IMG/VR virus record: IMGVR_UViG_3300025789_000069
Span: 1 to 43,785 of that record
DNA length: 43,785 nt
From: a virus
Direction: 5' to 3' (one strand)
Each line of letters starts with the position of its first letter. Position 1 is the first letter of the stretch. The position numbers and the translations under genes are program-made. A model generated the notes under the pieces. That model had not been told where the DNA came from, made no database searches, and saw only the letters and a list, made by a program, of their open reading frames with translations. Of the stretch, positions 12,393-36,334 are shown piece after piece.

Positions 12393-13130
12393 TTATCTGA
12401 AGCTTGACACAGCGTAACCGGTACGCTGATCCGGTGCGAAGCTGGTCGGTGCATCTTCCACGTCCCAGTCCTCGAGCATCATGCGGAATTGATTGGCACG
12501 ACGCTCACACCGGTCCATGATAGCCTGTGGCTGACCAGTTGCCAACTCATCCGCGAGACCCCAGCGCAGACCCATAGCCCACTCAGTCGGGAAAGCCATG
12601 TCGTCAGTCAAACTGACCATGTTGGCCACTTGGGTCTGCGTGACAAGGTGAGCCTGGCCGGTGGCGGCGTTGGCGTCAGGAATCAGCCAGAACGAGACCT
12701 GCAACTGGTACTGCTGCTTGTTGACGAAGTACGAGTTAAGCTGGCCCTGCTGGTTGACCTGGGACAAGGTGACCCAGTCATGCCATGATAATGGGATCAG
12801 GGGACGGCGCACTTGGGTCTGATCAAGGTAGTAAGCCTCGATGATCCGGGTGGGCTTGGTCAAATAGCCCGTGCTGACGCTGCCGTTGGGGTAGGTCGGG
12901 GTGTAGGTGGCTTGGCCAGGGATCAATGTGATGGCGATGTCTTCAATCAACCAGAGCTTGAGCCCCTGCGTCTGCCACAAGTTGGCTACGTCATTCATGC
13001 GAGTCAGCCCATCGGCGTATTGTTCGCTCGTGGGCTGGTCGCCGTCTTGAATGAGCCCGGCGTCTTTGTACGCCATGCGGATGATCCGCTGGGCCGTGAG
13101 GTAGTTGGTTTGTGGGGTAGGGGTGCTCAT
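12393..13130 (-). CDS. P22 gp4-like head-to-tail adaptor
   Basis: A 245-residue protein. The opening Y-L-T-A-Q-R-I-I-R-M-A-Y-K-D-A-G-L, then D-G-L-T-R-M-N-D-V-A-N-L-W, and the later M-A-F-P-T-E-W-A-M-G-L-R-W match the pattern of tail accessory factors of the P22 gp4 group, which bind the portal and seal the connector. I chose the ATG at 13130 because it overlaps the previous stop as ATGA; the frame is open further upstream but there overlaps the previous gene. It is longer than P22 gp4 (166 residues). It lies directly upstream of the gp10-like gene. Confidence 0.75.
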   Translation of the reverse strand: MSTPTPQTNYLTAQRIIRMAYKDAGLIQDGDQPTSEQYADGLTRMNDVANLWQTQGLKLWLIEDIAITLIPGQATYTPTYPNGSVSTGYLTKPTRIIEAYYLDQTQVRRPLIPLSWHDWVTLSQVNQQGQLNSYFVNKQQYQLQVSFWLIPDANAATGQAHLVTQTQVANMVSLTDDMAFPTEWAMGLRWGLADELATGQPQAIMDRCERRANQFRMMLEDWDVEDAPTSFAPDQRTGYAVSSFR

Positions 13131-13408
13131 AGTACGACCACCTGTGCGTTGACGGGAACTGCTTGGCTGAACGTGATTGTAGTGTCGTTCGTTCGAGTGT
13201 AGCTTTGCCCGTAGATCTGGAAGATCCCGTTGATGAACACTTGACCCACCACAGTCGAGGGCACAGTGAATACGGTCTGTCCTGAAGTGGCCGTAAAGAC
13301 TGTAGGAGCGGTAGATCCGCTGATTGCCTGAGTCACTGCGTTTAGCCACGCAGCTGACACCGGGGGTCCTACAAGGTCAACATACGTAACGTTTAGAGGG
13401 TTGCTCAT
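13127..13408 (-). CDS. Small tail-fibre-like N-terminal domain protein
   Basis: A 93-residue protein. The segment P-V-S-A-A-W-L-N-A-V-T-Q-A-I resembles I-I-A-S-S-W-L-N-D-V-N-D-A-V at the start of the large tail spike (16565-18376), so it looks like a free-standing fibre attachment domain. The remainder (T-V-F-T-V-P, then V-F-I-N-G-I-F-Q) resembles a beta module common in phage fibres. It could be an adaptor for another spike or the remnant of a longer fibre. AAGGA precedes the ATG, and the stop overlaps the gp4-like start (ATGA). Confidence 0.65.
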   Translation of the reverse strand: MSNPLNVTYVDLVGPPVSAAWLNAVTQAISGSTAPTVFTATSGQTVFTVPSTVVGQVFINGIFQIYGQSYTRTNDTTITFSQAVPVNAQVVVL

Positions 13409-13419
13409 GGTGTTGTCCT

Positions 13420-14952
13420 TTACATTGTTTCCACGGTGAAATCATCTAAATACAAGCTGCCACTAAAAGCATACAAATTAAAAGCAATAAAGAAATAATT
13501 TGCCCATGACGGTACAACTCTATCCATTCCAGATGATAACTGCGTCCAGTCAATAGGTGAACCAGAATTTCCGATTCCAAACGTATCAAAAGTTACTGAA
13601 TTTCCAATTGACGGGATACCGCTTGACAAAGGCCCGTTAACCAAACAAGCTCCAGAGGTCACATAACATTGACCAGATGCAGCAGGAAATTTGTACCAAC
13701 CAGTAAACGCTGCCCTAGAAAAAGGATTAACTGGTACTACTAAAATAAATGAGCCATTTGATGCACCACTTGTTTTAGTGATTTTTAATGACTGCGTCCC
13801 ACCATGTGAGTATGTAGAACTTATAGCTAATGCTATGTTTGAACCAGTAAAACGATTTGTAATTGCTGCCGTATCACTATTTATTGACCACCAATCAGCA
13901 ATGGACGCAGTTTCAAACCCACTATCAGATAACTTATTGTTGGCAACAGGAGATATTTTGGATGGCAAATATGAAACGCCGTAAGAACGCACTTCAGAAA
14001 CTTGCACAGTACCATTGCCAGAATCCAAAACATTATTAGTGTTTTGAAGATTGAACATGAAAGCATCATTGATAACAACAGATGAGGAATCTGTGTTAAA
14101 AAAGCCATTTTGTGCTAATGCGCCAACACTTCCATTCTGTTGCAATCTTCCGCCAAACATCGACAATGTTGAATTGTTAGACAGACTAGCAACAACATTT
14201 CCCGAGCCAGCATCATTACATTCCCACCAAGTGCTATGCAGTTCAGTAACGCTATTGTTTGTCGCAACTAATGATTTAGTGTTGTAATCTAAAGAACAAT
14301 TTGTTAACTGAAGTGCACCTGTATTGCAATTGTTGGAAATACCAAGCACATTGTCATAGATAGCACAATTTACAAATGATATGCGTTCACCATAATTTGA
14401 GCCACCAGAAATAATGTATACACCAATTGCACATTGCCCAATGTTTACATTGATGTAAGACTGAATATATCCACCACTATAAATAGTAATTCCATAACCA
14501 AAGCCGTACACAATGCAGTTCATTACTGAAATATGTGCAGTATTTGCTTTTAAACCAACAGTTGTCGTTCCTGCCGCTGCACCACCGCCAGCTTTGCCAT
14601 TTCCTAGCAAAATAAGACCATCAATTTTTTGTGCAATTGCACTTGGTGAAGTAAGATCAGATGGTGTTAAAGTTGATGTATTGGTTAAATTTATAGCAAC
14701 TTGCGTTCCTGTGATACTACTAAAATCCAATATCGCATTGTCACCTAGCAAAGACTGATTCCCAAGATTAACAGTTATGCCAGGACTGCAAAGATATGTA
14801 CCTTGAGGAATGTAAACAGTTTGGTTGGTTGCCAAAGCCGCACTCAAAGCTGTGTAGTTAGCCGCCGCTGTTCCGCTTGTAGAAAAGCCATAATCAAGGG
14901 CATTTACATAAGCACCGTTGATCATTGAATAAGAGACTTTGGTCAAAGACAT
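13420..14952 (-). CDS. Tail spike with parallel beta-helix fold
   Basis: A 510-residue protein. The start (M-I-N-G-A-Y-V-N-A-L-D-Y-G, then V-Y-I-P-Q-G-T-Y-L) is the usual entry into a right-handed beta-helix of the pectate-lyase type. Asn/Ile/Ser-rich coils run to about residue 330. A separate C-terminal jelly-roll-like domain follows (D-S-G-F-E-T-A-S-I-A-D-W, near 344-510), resembling a carbohydrate-binding module. It probably binds or cuts a surface polysaccharide. The DNA is clearly AT-richer than the flanking hub and capsid genes, suggesting recent acquisition. Confidence 0.8.
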   Translation of the reverse strand: MSLTKVSYSMINGAYVNALDYGFSTSGTAAANYTALSAALATNQTVYIPQGTYLCSPGITVNLGNQSLLGDNAILDFSSITGTQVAINLTNTSTLTPSDLTSPSAIAQKIDGLILLGNGKAGGGAAAGTTTVGLKANTAHISVMNCIVYGFGYGITIYSGGYIQSYINVNIGQCAIGVYIISGGSNYGERISFVNCAIYDNVLGISNNCNTGALQLTNCSLDYNTKSLVATNNSVTELHSTWWECNDAGSGNVVASLSNNSTLSMFGGRLQQNGSVGALAQNGFFNTDSSSVVINDAFMFNLQNTNNVLDSGNGTVQVSEVRSYGVSYLPSKISPVANNKLSDSGFETASIADWWSINSDTAAITNRFTGSNIALAISSTYSHGGTQSLKITKTSGASNGSFILVVPVNPFSRAAFTGWYKFPAASGQCYVTSGACLVNGPLSSGIPSIGNSVTFDTFGIGNSGSPIDWTQLSSGMDRVVPSWANYFFIAFNLYAFSGSLYLDDFTVETM

Positions 14953-14966
14953 AATTGTTCCTTAAA

Positions 14967-15311
14967 TTAAGCAGTTGCCCAAGGCAAAGCAGGTTTAATT
15001 ACAGTAGGGTTAATTTGAGCAGCTAAGTCAGCATTGATAGCTGATTCAATAGCTTCTTGATTGACACCATTAGACCAGCACCAGCCAATCACTTGAGCTT
15101 TAGTAAGTTGAGCAAAAGGCGTAAAAGAACCATTAACTTCTGGTTCTGGAAATGTGCAACTACTGTAAATGCTGCTGTTAAATTCTTTATTGTTAACAAT
15201 TTCAGAACCAGTAGCACGCCATCCAGCGGTCAGAACCACTTGAGTAAAACCATTGATGGTTTGAGTTGATTGTTCAAGCCAATCAATAGTCCAGTTGATA
15301 GTAGCCGCCAC
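14967..15311 (-). CDS. Conserved small tail-region protein, unknown function
   Basis: A 114-residue protein that begins with GTG; AGGTTAATC just upstream gives a ribosome binding site. The sequence (I-N-W-T-I-D-W-L-E-Q, then V-V-L-T-A-G-W-R-A-T-G, and Q-V-I-G-W-C-W) resembles small proteins encoded beside tail fibres in several phages, function unknown. The C-terminal part looks helical (E-A-I-E-S-A-I-N-A-D-L-A-A-Q-I). It shares the AT-rich composition of the spike genes around it. Confidence 0.7.
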   Translation of the reverse strand: MAATINWTIDWLEQSTQTINGFTQVVLTAGWRATGSEIVNNKEFNSSIYSSCTFPEPEVNGSFTPFAQLTKAQVIGWCWSNGVNQEAIESAINADLAAQINPTVIKPALPWATA

Positions 15312-15329
15312 GATTAACCTTTCAATTGA

Positions 15330-16565
15330 TTAGGGGTGAGATGCTTTGTAAGCATCAAATTCTGCTTTAAGTTCTTTGATTGCAGCAACCAAAAGCGGGA
15401 TTGTGTCGGTATACGACAAACTTAAAGTACCAATTTTATCTTCGTTCACTTTAATTGCTTCTGGCAAAACTGCATTGACATCTTGTGCAATTAAAAATGG
15501 TCTGCGGACACCATCTGCATCAGTTTTGTATTTCCCTATAACAGTACGCAGCGTTGAAACTTTGTTAACAGCATTGGTAATAGGTTCAATAATGTCTTTA
15601 ATTCTTTCATCAGAAAAAGAAGACCAACTGTTGCCGTTTTGATATAAAACAACACCCGCAGTTCCACCACCAGAATAAACACTTGTATTACCGTTATTGT
15701 TTGATATAACAAACTGTTTTCCAGAATCGTTATATGAATTTATTGCTATTGCGCTTGTTTGACCGCCACCACCAAAAACGGCTGTGGCATTTGCTACGGT
15801 ATAGACTGTTGCGCTGCCATAGGTCTGTACAACACCAGAAGAGTTAATAGTAAATCTAAGCGCAGAATTTGCCCAATCATAAATTTGAAAGTTTAAACCT
15901 GTTCCTCCTGTTGTAATGTTGTTGCCAATAAGCCAACGGTTTCCAGATGAGCCTACAAGTTGAATTTGAATGTTGTCGTCAGAACTGTTTGAATTTTGTA
16001 GTCTTAATAAACTAGCAGTAGCTCCGCTAGCGTGAATAAGTGCGCTAGGGCTATTAGTACCGAGGCCTAAATAATTTGCGCTTGTAAGGCGCATACGTTC
16101 AGAAAATGATTCAGAACCTTGTGAACCTGTGTATGTATAAAAAGCAATACCAGTTCCAGATAAGCTGGTTATTGCACCACCACCGCCAGCAGCAGTACCA
16201 AATTGAAAACCACCACCAGCAGAATTTACAGCAGAAAATCCAACAGAGGTTCCGCTAGAGCCTGTTGTTGTACCAACAAGCAATTGGCTTCCCGTAAATT
16301 GTAAAACAGACCCCGTAGCAAGCGAACTTGTAGAGTTTGCATAAACTACACCACCAGAAGTAAAGCTGGTCAATCCTGTACCGCCATTAGCACCAGAAAG
16401 AGGTGTAGTTGTCAAAGACAATGACGCTGCACTTACAGCTCGACCAGCCGTTAAGTTAGCTACGCTAACGCTATCAGTTACACCAGACTGATTGATTGGC
16501 ACAATTTCACTACCCGACAATGGAGTAGTGGCTGACGATAACGCTGATATTTTGGTGTTAGCCAT
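15330..16565 (-). CDS. Tail fibre with C-terminal S74 intramolecular chaperone
   Basis: A 411-residue fibre. The N-terminus (K-I-S-A-L-S-S-A-T-T-P-L-S-G-S-E) is a common fibre start, and the middle is Gly/Ser/Thr-rich beta repeats. The last 95 residues form a Peptidase_S74 domain: S-D-E-R-I-K-D-I-I-E-P-I (S315-D316), then the long helix ending near the C-terminus. In this family the domain trimerises and folds the fibre, then cleaves itself off before the conserved Ser-Asp. The start overlaps the previous stop as TAATG, so it is coupled to the spike above. Composition is AT-rich. Confidence 0.88.
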   Translation of the reverse strand: MANTKISALSSATTPLSGSEIVPINQSGVTDSVSVANLTAGRAVSAASLSLTTTPLSGANGGTGLTSFTSGGVVYANSTSSLATGSVLQFTGSQLLVGTTTGSSGTSVGFSAVNSAGGGFQFGTAAGGGGAITSLSGTGIAFYTYTGSQGSESFSERMRLTSANYLGLGTNSPSALIHASGATASLLRLQNSNSSDDNIQIQLVGSSGNRWLIGNNITTGGTGLNFQIYDWANSALRFTINSSGVVQTYGSATVYTVANATAVFGGGGQTSAIAINSYNDSGKQFVISNNNGNTSVYSGGGTAGVVLYQNGNSWSSFSDERIKDIIEPITNAVNKVSTLRTVIGKYKTDADGVRRPFLIAQDVNAVLPEAIKVNEDKIGTLSLSYTDTIPLLVAAIKELKAEFDAYKASHP

Positions 16566-18376
16566 TATTGTGCCGCCAAGTAGCTGCCAGAAATGTAAAA
16601 CTTAGATGTTGAGCCTATGTTGCTGTTAGTGATGGACGATTGCGTTCCACCTGTATCAGTAACCAAAGCAATTGAGCTGCTATTGTCATTGATAAACCAA
16701 CCAAGCACACCCGTGTATGTGCAGTTAATAGCTTGGACAGGGCCAGTTGCTCCATACACACCAGTTGCAACAGATGCAGCATCAGGCATACTTCCTAAAT
16801 TAACTGATACCGAACCTGTACCACTAACAGAACCATTCAATTGAATTGTTATGTCAAAGAAAATTCGTTTGCCAACTCGGGTATAAAAACCTTCTTGAAT
16901 GTTATACGCTGACTGTACTGTGCTACCAACTGATATGGTTGGGGTAAACGAGCCTGTAATTCCGTAAATACTATCGACATTGCCAATTGTTTGTGCGGTT
17001 ACTGAGTTTGCATTTCCAAGAAAAATTGAACCATACACCGCTTGGTTGTTTGATACTACATTGGTGTTTGGTGCATATATAGCATAGCCATTAGTAATGC
17101 CTGAAGTTTGGTCAATGTAATTGTTTGAAATCAAATTTGAGCTGTAACTAACAAGCATTTGGTGAACACCACTTGCCGTGTTAGAAGCATTGCAACCATA
17201 TATGTAATTGTTAGAGATTACAGAGTTGTTGTAGTCCAAAGCCATGCCTGATTGCTGGCAGTTTCTAGCATTGTTTCCAACAAATTGAACAAACGAACCA
17301 TCAGCATAAAAGCCTGTACCATGATTGCCATAAGTCATGTTGCCAATGACTTGATGACGTGCATCAATAGTTCCAGTATGAGGATAGTCCGAACTTAAAT
17401 CAAACCCATCGTAATACTGAAACATAGTTGTATTGCCAATGAACTGCATGTGATAGCAACGGGCATCTACGCCAGCAGTCGTACCTTGGTAGGTTTTGAT
17501 GCCCGATTCACCGCAATAAGAAATAATGTTGCCTTGGGCTAAACCATCAAAGTTTCTGGCAAACGTGATACCTGAATAGCTTGCGTAAGTAATGTTGTTG
17601 TTGATCGCAGCGTTGCGCTCGCCTTGCTGATTGTTAATGTTCCAAAAAACAATACCACCAACATCAGCAGCACCCCCTTGGAATGTGCAATCTCGAACTG
17701 TTGAGTAAGTTGCATCATGGATGCTAATAGTTACAAACAAACCATAAATGCGACTTACATTAATGTTTGTTGCATTGCCGCCAAAATAAATTACAGGGCC
17801 GATTGACGTATAAGTAGGTGTCGGAGAAAGATCATTGTCATTTACCGTTGGTTGATACCCTGCATGACTACCAGCACTTGACGTATACGGTGTTGGATTA
17901 GATGCCCAAGTTGTTGTATTACGGCTAATGATTGAGGGCCATGTAATGCTTTGCAAATATAAGTTATCAATGCTTGAGTTATTTCCAGAAGTTACATTGA
18001 TAACAGTTGAATCATTTTTAATGATAGATTCAGCGCCAACCCCACGCCAAACCACGGTTCCTGTGTAGGTAACTGAAGAAAGCATTTTGTAAGTGCCAGC
18101 AGGGAAGAACACGGGTTTACCCGTATTGGTAGCAGCTTGAATAGCTGAAGTGCTATCGCTTAAACCTGTAGGGTCAGCGCCAAAATCCAAAACACTTACA
18201 GACTCTTGCAACTTAGCTTGAACCGTAGTGGTTACTGCGCCTGTGCCGCCTTCGTTGTACTGAATGCCTGCTGCGGCAAGCGGTGTGGGGAAGTTGCCGT
18301 TGTAAACGGCGTCGTTGACGTCGTTCAGCCAGGACGAAGCGATGATGGTTCCGCTGTTGAAAACTGTTGAGCTCAT
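16565..18376 (-). CDS. Large tail spike, pectate-lyase-like beta-helix
   Basis: A 603-residue spike. The N-terminal attachment segment contains I-I-A-S-S-W-L-N-D-V-N-D-A-V and G-G-T-G-A-V. The classic beta-helix entry S-V-L-D-F-G-A-D-P-T-G (near 81-91) and P-V-F-F-P-A-G-T-Y follow. Asn-rich right-handed beta-helix coils fill the middle and a beta-sandwich-like end starts near residue 475. It likely binds or degrades a host glycan. The start overlaps the previous stop (ATGA). The DNA is AT-rich compared with the capsid genes. Confidence 0.85.
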   Translation of the reverse strand: MSSTVFNSGTIIASSWLNDVNDAVYNGNFPTPLAAAGIQYNEGGTGAVTTTVQAKLQESVSVLDFGADPTGLSDSTSAIQAATNTGKPVFFPAGTYKMLSSVTYTGTVVWRGVGAESIIKNDSTVINVTSGNNSSIDNLYLQSITWPSIISRNTTTWASNPTPYTSSAGSHAGYQPTVNDNDLSPTPTYTSIGPVIYFGGNATNINVSRIYGLFVTISIHDATYSTVRDCTFQGGAADVGGIVFWNINNQQGERNAAINNNITYASYSGITFARNFDGLAQGNIISYCGESGIKTYQGTTAGVDARCYHMQFIGNTTMFQYYDGFDLSSDYPHTGTIDARHQVIGNMTYGNHGTGFYADGSFVQFVGNNARNCQQSGMALDYNNSVISNNYIYGCNASNTASGVHQMLVSYSSNLISNNYIDQTSGITNGYAIYAPNTNVVSNNQAVYGSIFLGNANSVTAQTIGNVDSIYGITGSFTPTISVGSTVQSAYNIQEGFYTRVGKRIFFDITIQLNGSVSGTGSVSVNLGSMPDAASVATGVYGATGPVQAINCTYTGVLGWFINDNSSSIALVTDTGGTQSSITNSNIGSTSKFYISGSYLAAQ

Positions 18377-32217: not shown

Positions 32218-32406
32218 ATGAGCACCCCCGCCCCCACGCGCCCACGCGCACCCGTGGCCATTGGGCCCCCTACGCGTGCGCCCACGCCTACGCGCACCCC
32301 CGCGCCTACGCCTGCCCAGGTCTGGCCGTTCCCACGGGCGATCCTGCCCACGCGCCCCGGCGCGCCACTGTTTAACCCTGACAACTTCGAAGAGGCCCCA
32401 CTATGA
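32218..32406 (+). CDS. Pro/Thr/Arg-rich small protein in repeat zone
   Basis: A 62-residue protein dominated by P-T-R and P-A-P units (T-R-A-P-T-P-T-R-T-P-A-P-T-P-A) that come from CCCACGCG-type DNA repeats. Only the last 25 residues (Q-V-W-P-F-P-R-A-I-L-P to N-P-D-N-F-E-E-A-P-L) look like ordinary protein. The stop overlaps the next start (ATGA). It could be a gene whose linker was lengthened by repeat expansion. Confidence 0.45.
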   Translation: MSTPAPTRPRAPVAIGPPTRAPTPTRTPAPTPAQVWPFPRAILPTRPGAPLFNPDNFEEAPL

Positions 32407-32747
32407 CCCTGCCCGATTGGATGAACCCACCCACGCCCACGCGTGCGCCTACGCGCGCCCCTGAGCCCCCACGCGCCTACGCGTCCACGCGCACCCCTGA
32501 GCGCAAGCGCATACCGCTCCACGCGGATCCAGGCACGCCCAAACGCGTGTCGGACCTACGCGCACGCATGGGCCTGTCACTCAACAAAATGTCGCGCCTG
32601 ATGGGCGTGGAGAATGCCACCTATCGCAAATGGGAAACCGGCGAACGCATCCCCACGGCCGCGGCTACGCGCCTGATCGACATCATGGAGCAGATCGAGA
32701 CCCACGCCCCCGCGCTCCACGCGCGCCTGATCGCGGAGGTGATGTGA
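32403..32747 (+). CDS. Xre-family regulator with repeat-derived N-terminus
   Basis: A 114-residue protein. The first 45 residues are Pro/Thr/Arg-rich and come from the DNA repeats; the rest is a helix-turn-helix domain (V-S-D-L-R-A-R-M-G-L-S-L-N-K-M-S-R-L-M-G, then Y-R-K-W-E-T-G-E-R-I-P). It is likely a DNA-binding regulator and the only classical one in the early block. It is a candidate reader of the operator-like repeats in the 29.3-30.0 kb region. Start and stop overlap the neighbours as ATGA and TGATG. Confidence 0.78.
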   Translation: MTLPDWMNPPTPTRAPTRAPEPPRAYASTRTPERKRIPLHADPGTPKRVSDLRARMGLSLNKMSRLMGVENATYRKWETGERIPTAAATRLIDIMEQIETHAPALHARLIAEVM

Positions 32748-32887: not shown

Positions 32888-33231
32888 CCCCGATCTCACT
32901 CGCCGATCGCCTACGCGCGCTCCTACGCGCGCACCCTGAAGGGCTGCGGGTCCTAGCGATCCAAGGTCATCTGGGGGGCGACTACCGAACCTCGATCGCC
33001 AACTGCTTGCGAAGGATGCCCGACGCCTACGTGAAGGACTGGGTCTGGCAAAGGACTGGCTGGGCTGCCGTGTGGGCGGTGGTCTACGACAAACCCAAGC
33101 CACAGGGCAGGCCGATCACTCGTCCTGATCCTCCAGCCCCTTCACGCGCCTACGCGCATGGGGGGCCAGCCGGTAAATCTCGTCAAGCTGGCGCTGTTTG
33201 GCCGCCAGCACTGCCGCGCGGTGGCCCTTGA
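32884..33231 (+). CDS. Early hypothetical overlapping the primase gene
   Basis: A 115-residue protein. The first 70 residues look like a winged-helix fold (L-A-D-R-L-R-A-L-L-R-A-H-P-E-G-L, then C-L-R-R-M-P-D-A-Y-V-K-D-W-V-W). The last 35 residues are Pro/Ala/Gly-rich and antisense to the 3' end of the primase-helicase gene (116-base tail-to-tail overlap). The start overlaps the previous stop (ATGA). The folded part is likely real; the tail may be a read-through extension. Confidence 0.6.
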   Translation: MTPISLADRLRALLRAHPEGLRVLAIQGHLGGDYRTSIANCLRRMPDAYVKDWVWQRTGWAAVWAVVYDKPKPQGRPITRPDPPAPSRAYAHGGPAGKSRQAGAVWPPALPRGGP

Positions 33232-35578
33232 ACATGGTCAAGAGCTTGGGGTTGATGGCCCACTGGGCGAAGTGCTGATTCTCTTTCGTGCCGTCGTCCA
33301 CGCGGATCACCCAGGTGGCCTGCTCTAGCAGCGCCATCGCGCCGATCACCATCTGGTCGGCCTGCCACTGGCTCACGCCCTCCACCTGCCTACGCGCGGA
33401 CCTCTTGATCTCGCCCAGGGTCAGGGTTGACTTGTCAGCGTGCTGGATCACATAGTCGGCCACCCACGCGTCAAACGAGTTGCCGCCCACCTCGCCCAGG
33501 GAGTAGCGCAGCGCGGGGATCACATAGTCCTTCACCACGCGGATCACGCGCTCCACGATCTCAGGCCCGACCACAATGTCGAATGGCCGCTCCATGAGGT
33601 GGAACAGGATGATCAGCCTGCCGGTCGTGCCCTCGATCTTGCCAAACGCGGTCATGAACGAGTCAGGCGACGACAGGATGCGCTCGTCCTTCTTTGCGGT
33701 CTCATACCAGCGCTGGAACTCGCGGAACACCTTGTGGGCAGCCGGAGAGAGCTTGTAGGTCTGGGCCGGTAACGCGTAAACCAGGCGCAAAGTCTGCTCC
33801 CACTGGGCCTTGTTGGTCATGAACTCGGGGATGGGCTCACCCAGTCGCGTCTTATCACCTCGCAGGATCGCAGGTATGAACCGCTGGAGCAGGCCATCAC
33901 TGGTCAGGCTGGCCAGATTGTCGCGGTACACTTTGGGCTGGATGTTGCCGTAAATCGAGACAGCCAGGTTCTCGCAGTGGATCGACCCGGACCCCACCCG
34001 GTCCATGTCGTATTTTTCTGACTCGTAGCTGACAACCCAGGCTGAGCGATCCTCGCCGCTGGTCTTGTCGGTGAGCTTCTTCACCCAGCTGTTCATTTCG
34101 TCCAGGTAGCACAGCAGGCCCCGAGGTCTCTCAGCAGCCTGGCGCACGAGCTTCTGGGATGTTACGTCATTGACAACGATACGCACCGGCGTCGGGGCTG
34201 GCGGGAGATCGTTGACGACCGGTGCAGCCGATGGGTCCAGCTGACCCTCTGGTGTCTTATGGTACTCAGTGAAAGCCTTGTGCGCGGCCTCGTGGGCTGC
34301 CTCTTTGCCTTCCCAATCGAGCATTTCCTTCTTGTATCTTGGCGCGTCTTCTGATTCAATATCACGTAGCGCCGACAGCATGGGTCTGGAGCCTGGACTC
34401 TTTTTGTCTGCTGGATCCCCAATCGTCATGAGCCAGAGCACCGGCGGGACCTGAAAGCCTGGCATCAACTCAAGTCGGATCTCAGCGTCGACAACCCCGC
34501 AGACAGCCGACAAGCCTGCGAAGAGCGGGACCAAAGGGTCACAGCCCACACTTTCCGATACCTGCTGAGCCCTGGTGGCCAGCACAGATGGCCACAGCGA
34601 CAGATCGATCTCAGGAGCCGGGGGCTTGAGCCCGGACATCACCTCGAGCGGTGCGTCTGGCGACTCGATGGACTTGAACAGTTCTGATGCGTCTGGCATG
34701 GGCCTGCTCCATCCGTGCTGCTTGGCAATGTGAAAAAGTGTCCCGAGCTTGACACTGTTGACCTTGTCGGTCTTGAAGCTGTTCCACTGTGCAATGAGGG
34801 TGCGCTCTCCAGGGTACTTGGGCGAGGGCATCGACCACTCGTTCCAAAGCGAGAGCGCCTGATCGAGTTGATTGGTCTGCGACCCGGCCCAGTTGAGCGC
34901 CATGCCGACATGCACCCACTCTTCCCTTGAACAGTCTGGATTGATGGCCTCCATGGCCTGGCGAATCTCTTCCCATGACGCATTGATGGCGTCCCCAGTG
35001 GTCAGGTTTCGCACCTTGTCCGAGTCAAGGAGCTTTTGCCACAGATCGAGCAGAAACTGAGGGATGATCGGCAGCCGGGTCCAGTGACCCCGGCCTGCCC
35101 AGCGGTACGGTTGCAGGGTCTCAGGGTGAATGGATGGGGGCAGGACATCCTGCACCGTGAGACCGTTGGCCGTGCTGGAGCGCAGCTCGTAGACCGTCTG
35201 GCCATTGACCAAGACCTTCTTTGATGGCAGCGACAGACCAAAGGGCATGGAGTAGAGCAGCTTGCCGTGGCCAGCCTTGCCCGACTCGATGATAACGGCG
35301 TCCGGTGCGTCGTAGAGGGTCTTAAGATCGATGCCCTGGGCGATTGTTGCGTCCCAGTTGTCGATGTCAAAAGCCATCGTGCCGCTGTAAGCATGGGCAA
35401 GCCCGATGCCAAAGCCCGGCGGCAGCTGGGTCTGGTCCTTAAGTGCTTGGGTCTTTTGGTTCCAGCCTGCGGTGCGGGGTCCCTTGGTCCCTTGGGGGAT
35501 CGGTACAAGTGACCAACCGTGGCGAATATAAGCATCGACTGATGCGGGGTGCTGTTGAACTGACTGTACAGGTAGCAT
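33116..35578 (-). CDS. Primase-polymerase/helicase fusion (Prim-Pol, PriCT-2, DUF3987)
   Basis: An 820-residue replication protein. The N-terminal Prim-Pol domain has M-A-F-D-I-D-N (D71, D73) and G-H-G-K-L-L-Y (H104), the expected metal and nucleotide residues, plus V-Y-E-L-R-S. A PriCT-2-like linker follows (about 203-290). The rest is DUF3987-type helicase with a degenerate P-loop near I-G-D-P-A-D-K-K-S-P-G and Walker B L-L-C-Y-L-D-E-M. It would unwind and prime the phage DNA. I chose ATG 35578; the frame is open to a TTG at 35623. It has a weak GACGAG ribosome site and a leader of about 100 bases covered by an antisense RNA. Confidence 0.82.
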   Translation of the reverse strand: MLPVQSVQQHPASVDAYIRHGWSLVPIPQGTKGPRTAGWNQKTQALKDQTQLPPGFGIGLAHAYSGTMAFDIDNWDATIAQGIDLKTLYDAPDAVIIESGKAGHGKLLYSMPFGLSLPSKKVLVNGQTVYELRSSTANGLTVQDVLPPSIHPETLQPYRWAGRGHWTRLPIIPQFLLDLWQKLLDSDKVRNLTTGDAINASWEEIRQAMEAINPDCSREEWVHVGMALNWAGSQTNQLDQALSLWNEWSMPSPKYPGERTLIAQWNSFKTDKVNSVKLGTLFHIAKQHGWSRPMPDASELFKSIESPDAPLEVMSGLKPPAPEIDLSLWPSVLATRAQQVSESVGCDPLVPLFAGLSAVCGVVDAEIRLELMPGFQVPPVLWLMTIGDPADKKSPGSRPMLSALRDIESEDAPRYKKEMLDWEGKEAAHEAAHKAFTEYHKTPEGQLDPSAAPVVNDLPPAPTPVRIVVNDVTSQKLVRQAAERPRGLLCYLDEMNSWVKKLTDKTSGEDRSAWVVSYESEKYDMDRVGSGSIHCENLAVSIYGNIQPKVYRDNLASLTSDGLLQRFIPAILRGDKTRLGEPIPEFMTNKAQWEQTLRLVYALPAQTYKLSPAAHKVFREFQRWYETAKKDERILSSPDSFMTAFGKIEGTTGRLIILFHLMERPFDIVVGPEIVERVIRVVKDYVIPALRYSLGEVGGNSFDAWVADYVIQHADKSTLTLGEIKRSARRQVEGVSQWQADQMVIGAMALLEQATWVIRVDDGTKENQHFAQWAINPKLLTMFKGHRAAVLAAKQRQLDEIYRLAPHARRRVKGLEDQDE

Positions 35579-35583
35579 ATAAT
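35555..35583 (+). promoter_or_regulatory. Plus-strand promoter for a short antisense RNA
   Basis: TTGAAC (35555-35560) and a perfect TATAAT (35578-35583) are spaced exactly 17 bases apart. The -10 box overlaps the start codon of the oppositely oriented primase-helicase gene. The predicted start is near 35590. Confidence 0.75.
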
Positions 35584-35589
35584 TGACTC
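35581..35589 (+). promoter_or_regulatory. ATTGACTC core shared with the 29-30 kb operators
   Basis: AATTGACTC lies directly after the -10 start of the antisense promoter. Its core matches the right half of the operator-like repeats at 29336, 29614 and 29854. A protein bound here would block antisense transcription. Confidence 0.4.
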
Positions 35590-35656
35590 GTCTAATGGTG
35601 ATTTCGCAGTTGCCTGACTTCAAGCCCCGGCCCTACCAGGTCGGGGTTTTCTTTTT
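35590..35656 (+). ncRNA. Candidate cis-antisense RNA to the primase-helicase leader
   Basis: A short transcript of about 65 bases should run from the promoter at 35555-35583 to the terminator at 35625-35656. It has no open frame with a ribosome site. It is fully complementary to the 5' leader of the primase-helicase mRNA, whose candidate promoter lies at 35690-35695. The layout recalls lambda OOP RNA. Both ends are predicted from consensus elements only. Confidence 0.6.
35625..35656 (+). terminator. Intrinsic terminator of the antisense RNA
   Basis: CCCCGGCC (35625-35632) pairs with GGTCGGGG (35639-35646), one G-U included, around CTACCA, followed by TTTTCTTTTT (35647-35656). There is no T-tract in the opposite direction, so it acts on plus-strand transcripts. 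Confidence 0.9.
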
Positions 35657-35683
35657 GGTCACATAAAAAATTTTAATTTGTTG

Positions 35684-35713
35684 TTGCACATTGTATCAGA
35701 AGTGTGTTACGAT
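35684..35713 (+). promoter_or_regulatory. Promoter of the replication operon
   Basis: TTGCAC (35684-35689) and TACGAT (35708-35713) are spaced 18 bases apart, with TG one base before the -10 box (extended -10). It would drive the ribbon-helix-helix gene and the replication genes. Confidence 0.68.
35690..35695 (-). promoter_or_regulatory. Minus-strand extended -10 for the primase-helicase gene
   Basis: On the minus strand TGATACAAT gives TACAAT (35690-35695) with the TGn extension; the -35 region is poor. It overlaps the spacer of the divergent plus-strand promoter, so the two should compete. Confidence 0.5.
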
Positions 35714-35736: not shown

Positions 35737-35943
35737 ATGGAAACCGTCGAAACCAGATCAAAATTTTTGACCATCAGGGTAAATCCCGATGTTCATAAGT
35801 CGTTCCGACTTAAGGCAGCAGCATACGGAGGTGTGTCTGAGGTCTTGAGGGAGCTCGTAAGTGCGTTCATTGATGAGCGCGTAATTGTTAGTCCAAACCC
35901 TGAAAGAAAGAGTATTTATCATGTCACTAGAAGCCAAAATTGA
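35737..35943 (+). CDS. Ribbon-helix-helix regulator
   Basis: A 68-residue protein with the RHH pattern: strand F-L-T-I-R-V-N-P, helix D-V-H-K-S-F-R-L-K-A-A-A-Y, turn G-G, and helix V-S-E-V-L-R-E-L-V-S-A-F-I-D. RHH dimers bind DNA through the N-terminal strand. It is the first gene of the replication operon, next to two overlapping promoters and the antisense RNA, so it may autoregulate this switch. I chose the ATG at 35737, preceded by GGAA; the earlier GTG lies in the promoter. The end overlaps the next gene by 23 bases. Confidence 0.75.
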   Translation: METVETRSKFLTIRVNPDVHKSFRLKAAAYGGVSEVLRELVSAFIDERVIVSPNPERKSIYHVTRSQN

Positions 35944-36334
35944 AGCTCTGACGCAAGTCATGACCCGCATCGCCGTCGCCCTCGAGTCGGCCAATGTAGC
36001 ACCAGTCGAACAAGTTGTGCAAGCTCCACAACCCGTGGTACAAGCGCCCGTTATTGTGGCTGCACCAGCGCCAGCACCTGTTGCTGCACCTGCTCCCGTC
36101 ATGCCCGCGGCTCCCACCTTCATCGCTCCCGCACCCGTGGCAGCTCCAGTGGGTGCACCGTTTAACGATGGCAAGGGCCTGATCGAATACGTCATGACCG
36201 CCTACAAGGCCATGGGTGCTGAAAAAGGTGCTCAGATCCAAGGCGTGCTGTCCACCCTGGGCTACAGCAACATCAACGACGTGAAGCCCGAGCACTACTC
36301 GGCTCTGTACGCAGGTGTGGAAGCGCTGAAATGA
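35921..36334 (+). CDS. Ala/Pro-rich protein with helical ends
   Basis: A 137-residue protein. An N-terminal helix (L-E-A-K-I-E-A-L-T-Q-V-M-T-R-I-A-V-A-L) is joined by an Ala/Pro/Val linker (P-A-P-A-P-V-A-A-P-A-P) to a C-terminal helical domain (L-I-E-Y-V-M-T-A-Y-K-A-M-G-A, then I-N-D-V-K-P-E-H-Y). The C-terminal domain resembles small proteins found next to DUF2800/DUF2815 genes. I chose ATG 35921, after AAAGAG. It is coupled by ATGA to the nuclease gene, so a nuclease or ssDNA-protein partner is plausible. Confidence 0.65.
   Translation: MSLEAKIEALTQVMTRIAVALESANVAPVEQVVQAPQPVVQAPVIVAAPAPAPVAAPAPVMPAAPTFIAPAPVAAPVGAPFNDGKGLIEYVMTAYKAMGAEKGAQIQGVLSTLGYSNINDVKPEHYSALYAGVEALK

Follow-up and report, generated by a model that had tools for sequence, protein, structure and literature searches.

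The window analysed here is the whole 43,785-nt stretch of the IMG/VR virus record IMGVR_UViG_3300025789_000069 (positions 1–43,785), to which all window coordinates refer. At the start of a primase-helicase gene on its minus strand, and in the intergenic region upstream, the following features were located:

33116–35578, minus strand: primase-helicase (Prim-Pol, PriCT-2, DUF3987), 820 aa, ATG at 35578–35576
35555–35560, plus strand: predicted antisense −35 box TTGAAC, inside helicase codons 7–8 (Val-Gln)
35578–35583, plus strand: predicted antisense −10 box TATAAT, with one base in common with the helicase ATG
about 35590–35657, plus strand: predicted antisense RNA of about 66–68 nt, its start placed 7 nt after the −10 box
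35590–35618, plus strand: predicted 5′ stem-loop SL1, weaker in the window than in relatives
35576–35617, minus strand: remnant of a leader ORF (GGCAACTGCGAAATCACC...ATTATATG), its start codon, Shine-Dalgarno (SD) site and ATGA overlap missing
35622–35656, plus strand: predicted intrinsic terminator, an 11-pair stem (35622–35649) with a T-rich tail
35690–35698, minus strand: likely helicase promoter, extended −10 TGATACAAT
35684–35713, plus strand: putative divergent regulator promoter TTGCAC-18-TACGAT (−35 at 35684–35689, −10 at 35708–35713), overlapping the helicase promoter
35737–35943, plus strand: 68-aa ribbon-helix-helix (RHH)-like protein, divergent from the helicase

The initial annotation of this DNA had placed a near-consensus promoter on the helicase start codon and an intrinsic terminator 42 bases past its −10 box, and both were recovered. 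The two boxes, 17 bases apart, match the consensus at 10 of 12 positions, and the terminator stem is followed by TCTTTTT on the plus strand; the gap from the −10 box is 38 nt to the stem and 42 nt to the first CCCC. There is indeed no gene on the plus strand between promoter and terminator, and the product of about 65 bases that had been proposed agrees with the length predicted here, its whole length being complementary to the leader of the helicase mRNA. When both strands of the 43.8-kb window were searched by a custom scan for promoters matching at least 9 of 12 positions and having a strong terminator within 95 nt, this pair alone came up, where a mean of 0.05 pairs was expected by chance from 40 dinucleotide shuffles (and 0 at 10/12). 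An Rfam scan of the whole window found no family at gathering score. The overlapping divergent promoters claimed earlier were also located (minus strand 35698–35690, plus strand 35684–35713). From the former, the helicase transcript is predicted to start near 35683 and to carry a leader of about 105 nt containing the entire antisense target, and its TAC-AT stretch is conserved whether or not a relative has the antisense promoter-terminator block (the cassette). An alternative in-frame TTG start at 35623 on the minus strand would give a possible 835-aa helicase.

To compare this region among relatives, 144 distinct upstream regions were collected from scans of viral contigs and from phage DSL-LC05 (OR003940, our locus L082), which is the nearest named phage and belongs to the proposed Luchaoviridae; the words antisense, promoter and terminator are absent from its published description. 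In that phage the corresponding RNA is predicted at about 1962–2044 on the plus strand of OR003940.1. A comparison with cellular genomes for host assignment gave no firm host. Separately, a 56%-identical helicase (L083) was seen on the Patescibacteria MAG contig JAGWWT010000012.1, either a prophage or a misbinned phage contig. The terminator is present in 119 of the 144 regions, a raw count that, like those below, is not made up of independent observations because the sequences are related. Every one of the 119 has a −10 box fitting TA[TGAC]A[AC]T at precisely the same position over the helicase start; in 118 of them, a −35 box whose first half is TTG lies 17 bp from it. Past the TTG, these −35 boxes match the consensus poorly (TTGCAC, TTGTAC). 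Terminator stems are built from 39 distinct arms in 54 representatives, all able to pair, with compensatory changes. Conservation of boxes and stem had been named as a check on the RNA, and what the relatives show is not due to chance.

Most relatives also contain a short leader ORF that the initial annotation had overlooked, because the window copy has lost it. It was found in 112 of 115 ATGA-type relatives, usually with 10–15 codons and often encoding LATAIT or a variant, and its stop codon overlaps the helicase start (ATGA). An SD site (AAGGAG or similar) usually lies upstream of the leader ORF, while the helicase is without its own SD in 83 of 119 regions. Of the first start codons that follow the SD, 94 are in the ATGA frame and 5 in one of the other frames. 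The linker of the predicted antisense RNA reads CUCC in most relatives, the complement of the leader ORF SD. The leader ORF is the likely target of the antisense RNA in most relatives. The window has kept the promoter and terminator but has no CUCC linker and a weaker SL1; like the window, six other tree representatives keep the terminator with no SD-preceded leader ORF detected.

Codon usage on both sides of the helicase start is unusual. The codon for Gln8, whose complement supplies the −35 TTG, is CAA in 118 of 119 regions, compared with 29% CAA elsewhere in these genes. The penultimate codon of the leader ORF, ahead of an NTA, is always ATT or AGT and never ATC or AGC, even though these genes mostly use ATC for Ile. 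Codon choice is bent toward keeping both promoter boxes, with the reservation that the constraints on leader ORF and −10 box are not fully separable where the two overlap.

No terminator was called in the remaining 25 of the 144 regions, and most of these also lack both promoter boxes. Re-examination of three of them changed the count: the cassette of L182 is described below, L090 has a terminator with a longer loop, and L301 contains a degraded copy of the cassette, so that clean absences number about 22 of 25. With about 22 of 144 relatives lacking it, the block is not essential. Genomes without the cassette retain the region of the sense promoter, and the stretch from there to the helicase start is cleanly missing. 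A more distant locus, L089 (about 50% identity), has the terminator and a TATACT in register, with no clear −35 box. On the helicase tree the presence of the terminator switches several times, and the promoter follows it in 7/7 independent contrasts; after removal of L182 and L090, joint loss of terminator and promoter is seen in 6/6 contrasts (p ~0.03). Relatives that lose the −10 box or stem while retaining the genes had been named at the outset as grounds for rejecting the RNA. Such relatives exist, but in them promoter and terminator vanish jointly, usually together with the leader ORF, and this joint loss supports the view that they form one unit. In L006, L008, L012, L013, L049 and L073, a co-directional small gene apparently replaces the divergent promoter directly upstream of the cassette. 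These loci still have the antisense promoter and terminator, which argues that the terminator is not a neighbour's.

Folding of 54 representatives predicted a common layout for the antisense RNA, with a 5′ hairpin, a single-stranded linker and a terminator hairpin, and a length across relatives of 57–90 nt. The 5′ hairpin begins at or beside the predicted +1 in most of the 54, and the RNA has a conserved loop, U[UC]GCAG; no YUNR U-turn motif was seen by eye in the SL1 loop. The 5′ arm exceeds shuffled sequences in stability when folded as the antisense strand (mean z −1.13) but not when folded as the sense strand (+0.38). Applied to the full alignment, RNAalifold recovered the terminator alone, missing SL1 because indels blur its register, and a gap-free subset (n = 17) was used instead. 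In this subset 98% of cells pair in SL1 on the antisense strand vs. 59.5% on the sense strand; G-U pairs are conserved there, and compensatory changes occur. A covariance model built from the relatives matches the window at E 1.4e-7, the window being part of the training alignment, and also recovers the cassette in L182, L301 and L089, none of which was used in building it. Given the conservation, the codon bias, the joint loss and the strand-specific folding, the sequences strongly support a predicted cis-encoded antisense RNA that faces the replicase start and has a promoter and a terminator to itself.

In L182, an HNH/AP2-type homing-endonuclease-like gene (positions 1071–1546; family assigned by eye) sits precisely at the junction of leader ORF and helicase start, and the antisense cassette is intact upstream of it. 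The insertion displaced the helicase codons that had supplied the −35 box, and the new sequence supplies a TTGACA in their stead, giving a near-perfect promoter (TTGACA-16-TAGAAT) over the start of the inserted gene. This replacement promoter fits selection for the promoter, and it could also be due to chance.

The neighbouring gene described initially as RHH is present, but its family makes only weak matches (HicB, NikA, RelB, RHH_10), and RHH-like is a fair name for the protein. Its structure model has two helices at high confidence, and a fold search against the PDB returned no usable match. A homologue of 60–70 aa was found upstream in 124 of the 144 loci, cassette-negative ones included, and in all 124 it is divergent, on the strand opposite the helicase. 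Other observations concern genes and composition elsewhere in the window. Between the regulator gene and a DUF2800 gene, 35921–36334 encodes a small protein with a long Pro/Ala/Val-rich low-complexity stretch and a weak phrog_18562 match. The small protein at 32403–32747 has weak matches to CII-like and repressor regulators, a possible sign of a temperate or regulated life style. The GC content of positions 13000–18000 is 38–42%, vs. about 52–58% around it, which suggests a recently acquired segment.

Other explanations of the conserved block were weighed against a cis-acting antisense RNA. The RNA is structured and terminated, has a conserved loop and persists in the window although the leader ORF was lost, all of which would suit a small RNA that acts in trans on other phage or host targets and lies opposite the helicase start by happenstance. 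We consider this unlikely, since the position of the RNA relative to the helicase start is fixed in 119/119 regions, its conserved linker is complementary to the SD of the leader ORF, and exact repeats of it elsewhere in the window reach 11 nt at most. Alternatively, the sense strand alone might matter, as a leader ORF with a protective 5′ hairpin that serves coupled translation, the antisense promoter being a by-product. This would account for the conserved, in-frame leader ORF and SD, and the terminator hairpin can form on the sense strand too, but the T-rich run is confined to the antisense side, SL1 pairs poorly on the sense strand, the codon bias at the −35 box falls inside the helicase gene and outside the leader, and the window and the six tree representatives keep the terminator with no SD-preceded leader ORF detected. 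It appears the least probable of the alternatives.

The remaining two explanations assign a role to transcription at the site. If the antisense promoter acted by colliding with helicase transcription, the RNA could be inert and the terminator would shield the upstream promoters; the promoters do stand face to face, and the terminator precedes those of helicase and regulator. Such interference would have no need of a strand-specific stem-loop in which G-U pairs are conserved and changes compensated, and it is quite improbable as the whole explanation. Equally doubtful is a transcript that primes or activates DNA replication at an origin beside the replicase gene. The site adjoins replication genes, OOP RNA of phage lambda was once proposed as a primer (PMC12197685), and a primer transcript next to the antisense RNA has been suggested for plasmid pSYSA (PMC9978351), but GC skew in the window shows no clear change at the site, the unit is missing from several relatives, and the helicase already contains a Prim-Pol primase domain of its own. 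An origin of replication at this position, considered as a candidate in itself, was rejected on the same lack of a clear skew signal.

Lambda OOP had been offered as a parallel, and it holds loosely, insofar as OOP is a short phage-encoded antisense RNA. OOP targets cII, and P22 sar, another such RNA, regulates antirepressor synthesis (PMC12197685); neither covers a coupled replicase leader, whereas the phage RNA predicted here lies opposite a primase-helicase leader and not a cII-type regulator. By analogy, the plasmid control RNAs (R1 CopA, pMV158 RNAII and pSYSA asRNA1) are closer parallels. In R1 (IncFII), the antisense RNA CopA lies over the leader frame tap, to which repA is translationally coupled, and a separate transcriptional repressor, CopB, is present (PMC5717011). 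The phage unit resembles this in having a predicted antisense RNA over a leader frame with putative coupling to the helicase (stop-start overlap and SD in most relatives, the window having no leader ORF), together with a separate putative regulator. It differs in that CopA overlaps a copB-tap-repA operon with copB co-directional, whereas the phage regulator is divergent, in the position of its RNA promoter on the replicase start codon, and in its target, a primase-helicase rather than a plasmid initiator; there is also no sequence match, the Rfam scan of the window being empty. CopG of pMV158 is an RHH protein. It acts with RNAII, a 48-nt antisense RNA whose intrinsic terminator directly precedes the start of rep (PMC4485353). 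The phage unit likewise has a very short predicted antisense RNA with a terminator, and its small neighbour matches RHH families weakly, but RNAII is a single hairpin with a 5′ tail and lacks the extra 5′ hairpin of the phage RNA, copG is co-transcribed with repB while the phage gene is divergent in all 124 loci found, and no leader ORF is described for pMV158. In Synechocystis pSYSA, asRNA1 is directed against the small ORF ssr7036 just upstream of the primase-helicase CyRepA1 (PMC9978351), again an antisense RNA opposite a small ORF ahead of a primase-helicase. Unlike the phage RNA, asRNA1 is about 150 nt and is modelled like ColE1 RNAI with RNase E control, and ssr7036 encodes 64 aa and is followed by an intergenic spacer where priming is thought to occur. 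By homology and layout, as far as sequence comparison goes, the phage unit belongs to none of these three systems.

The locus probably carries an antisense RNA gene, encoded in cis, which keeps production of the phage primase-helicase in check. Starting from the promoter, the terminator, their joint conservation, the antisense-strand fold, the leader ORF frame and the coupling geometry, we infer the following for transcription, pairing, translation block, dosage sensing and action of the RHH-like protein. A sigma70-type promoter on helicase codons 7–8 and the start codon would make the RNA of 57–90 nt, which would end at the intrinsic terminator, short of the helicase and regulator promoters. 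Pairing with the helicase leader would hide the leader ORF from ribosomes, coupled translation of the helicase would stop, and the RNA-leader duplex would be exposed to RNase III. Since the RNA would be made from every genome copy, repression should grow with copy number and may thus exert dosage feedback on replication. The divergent RHH-like protein probably adds transcriptional repression, and the region as a whole may act as a switch, as had been suggested initially. In the window, which has no leader ORF left, the helicase leader itself would be the direct target of the RNA.

Copy-number feedback through antisense RNA is a plasmid hallmark, and the same architecture is found here on the replicase of more than 100 environmental phage sequences (uncultured freshwater phages). 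It is conceivable, and we put it forward tentatively, that a family of tailed phages evolved or captured a plasmid-style copy-number governor, in which antisense silencing of a coupled leader ORF would lower replicase output with rising genome copies, a block gained and lost whole and kept even where a homing-type endonuclease gene parts it from the replicase. The architecture suggests that some phages limit their own replication by gene dosage, a restraint that would bear on burst timing, pseudolysogeny and superinfection incompatibility. It also suggests that short regulatory RNAs of uncultured phages may be found from promoter, codon and joint-loss signatures alone.
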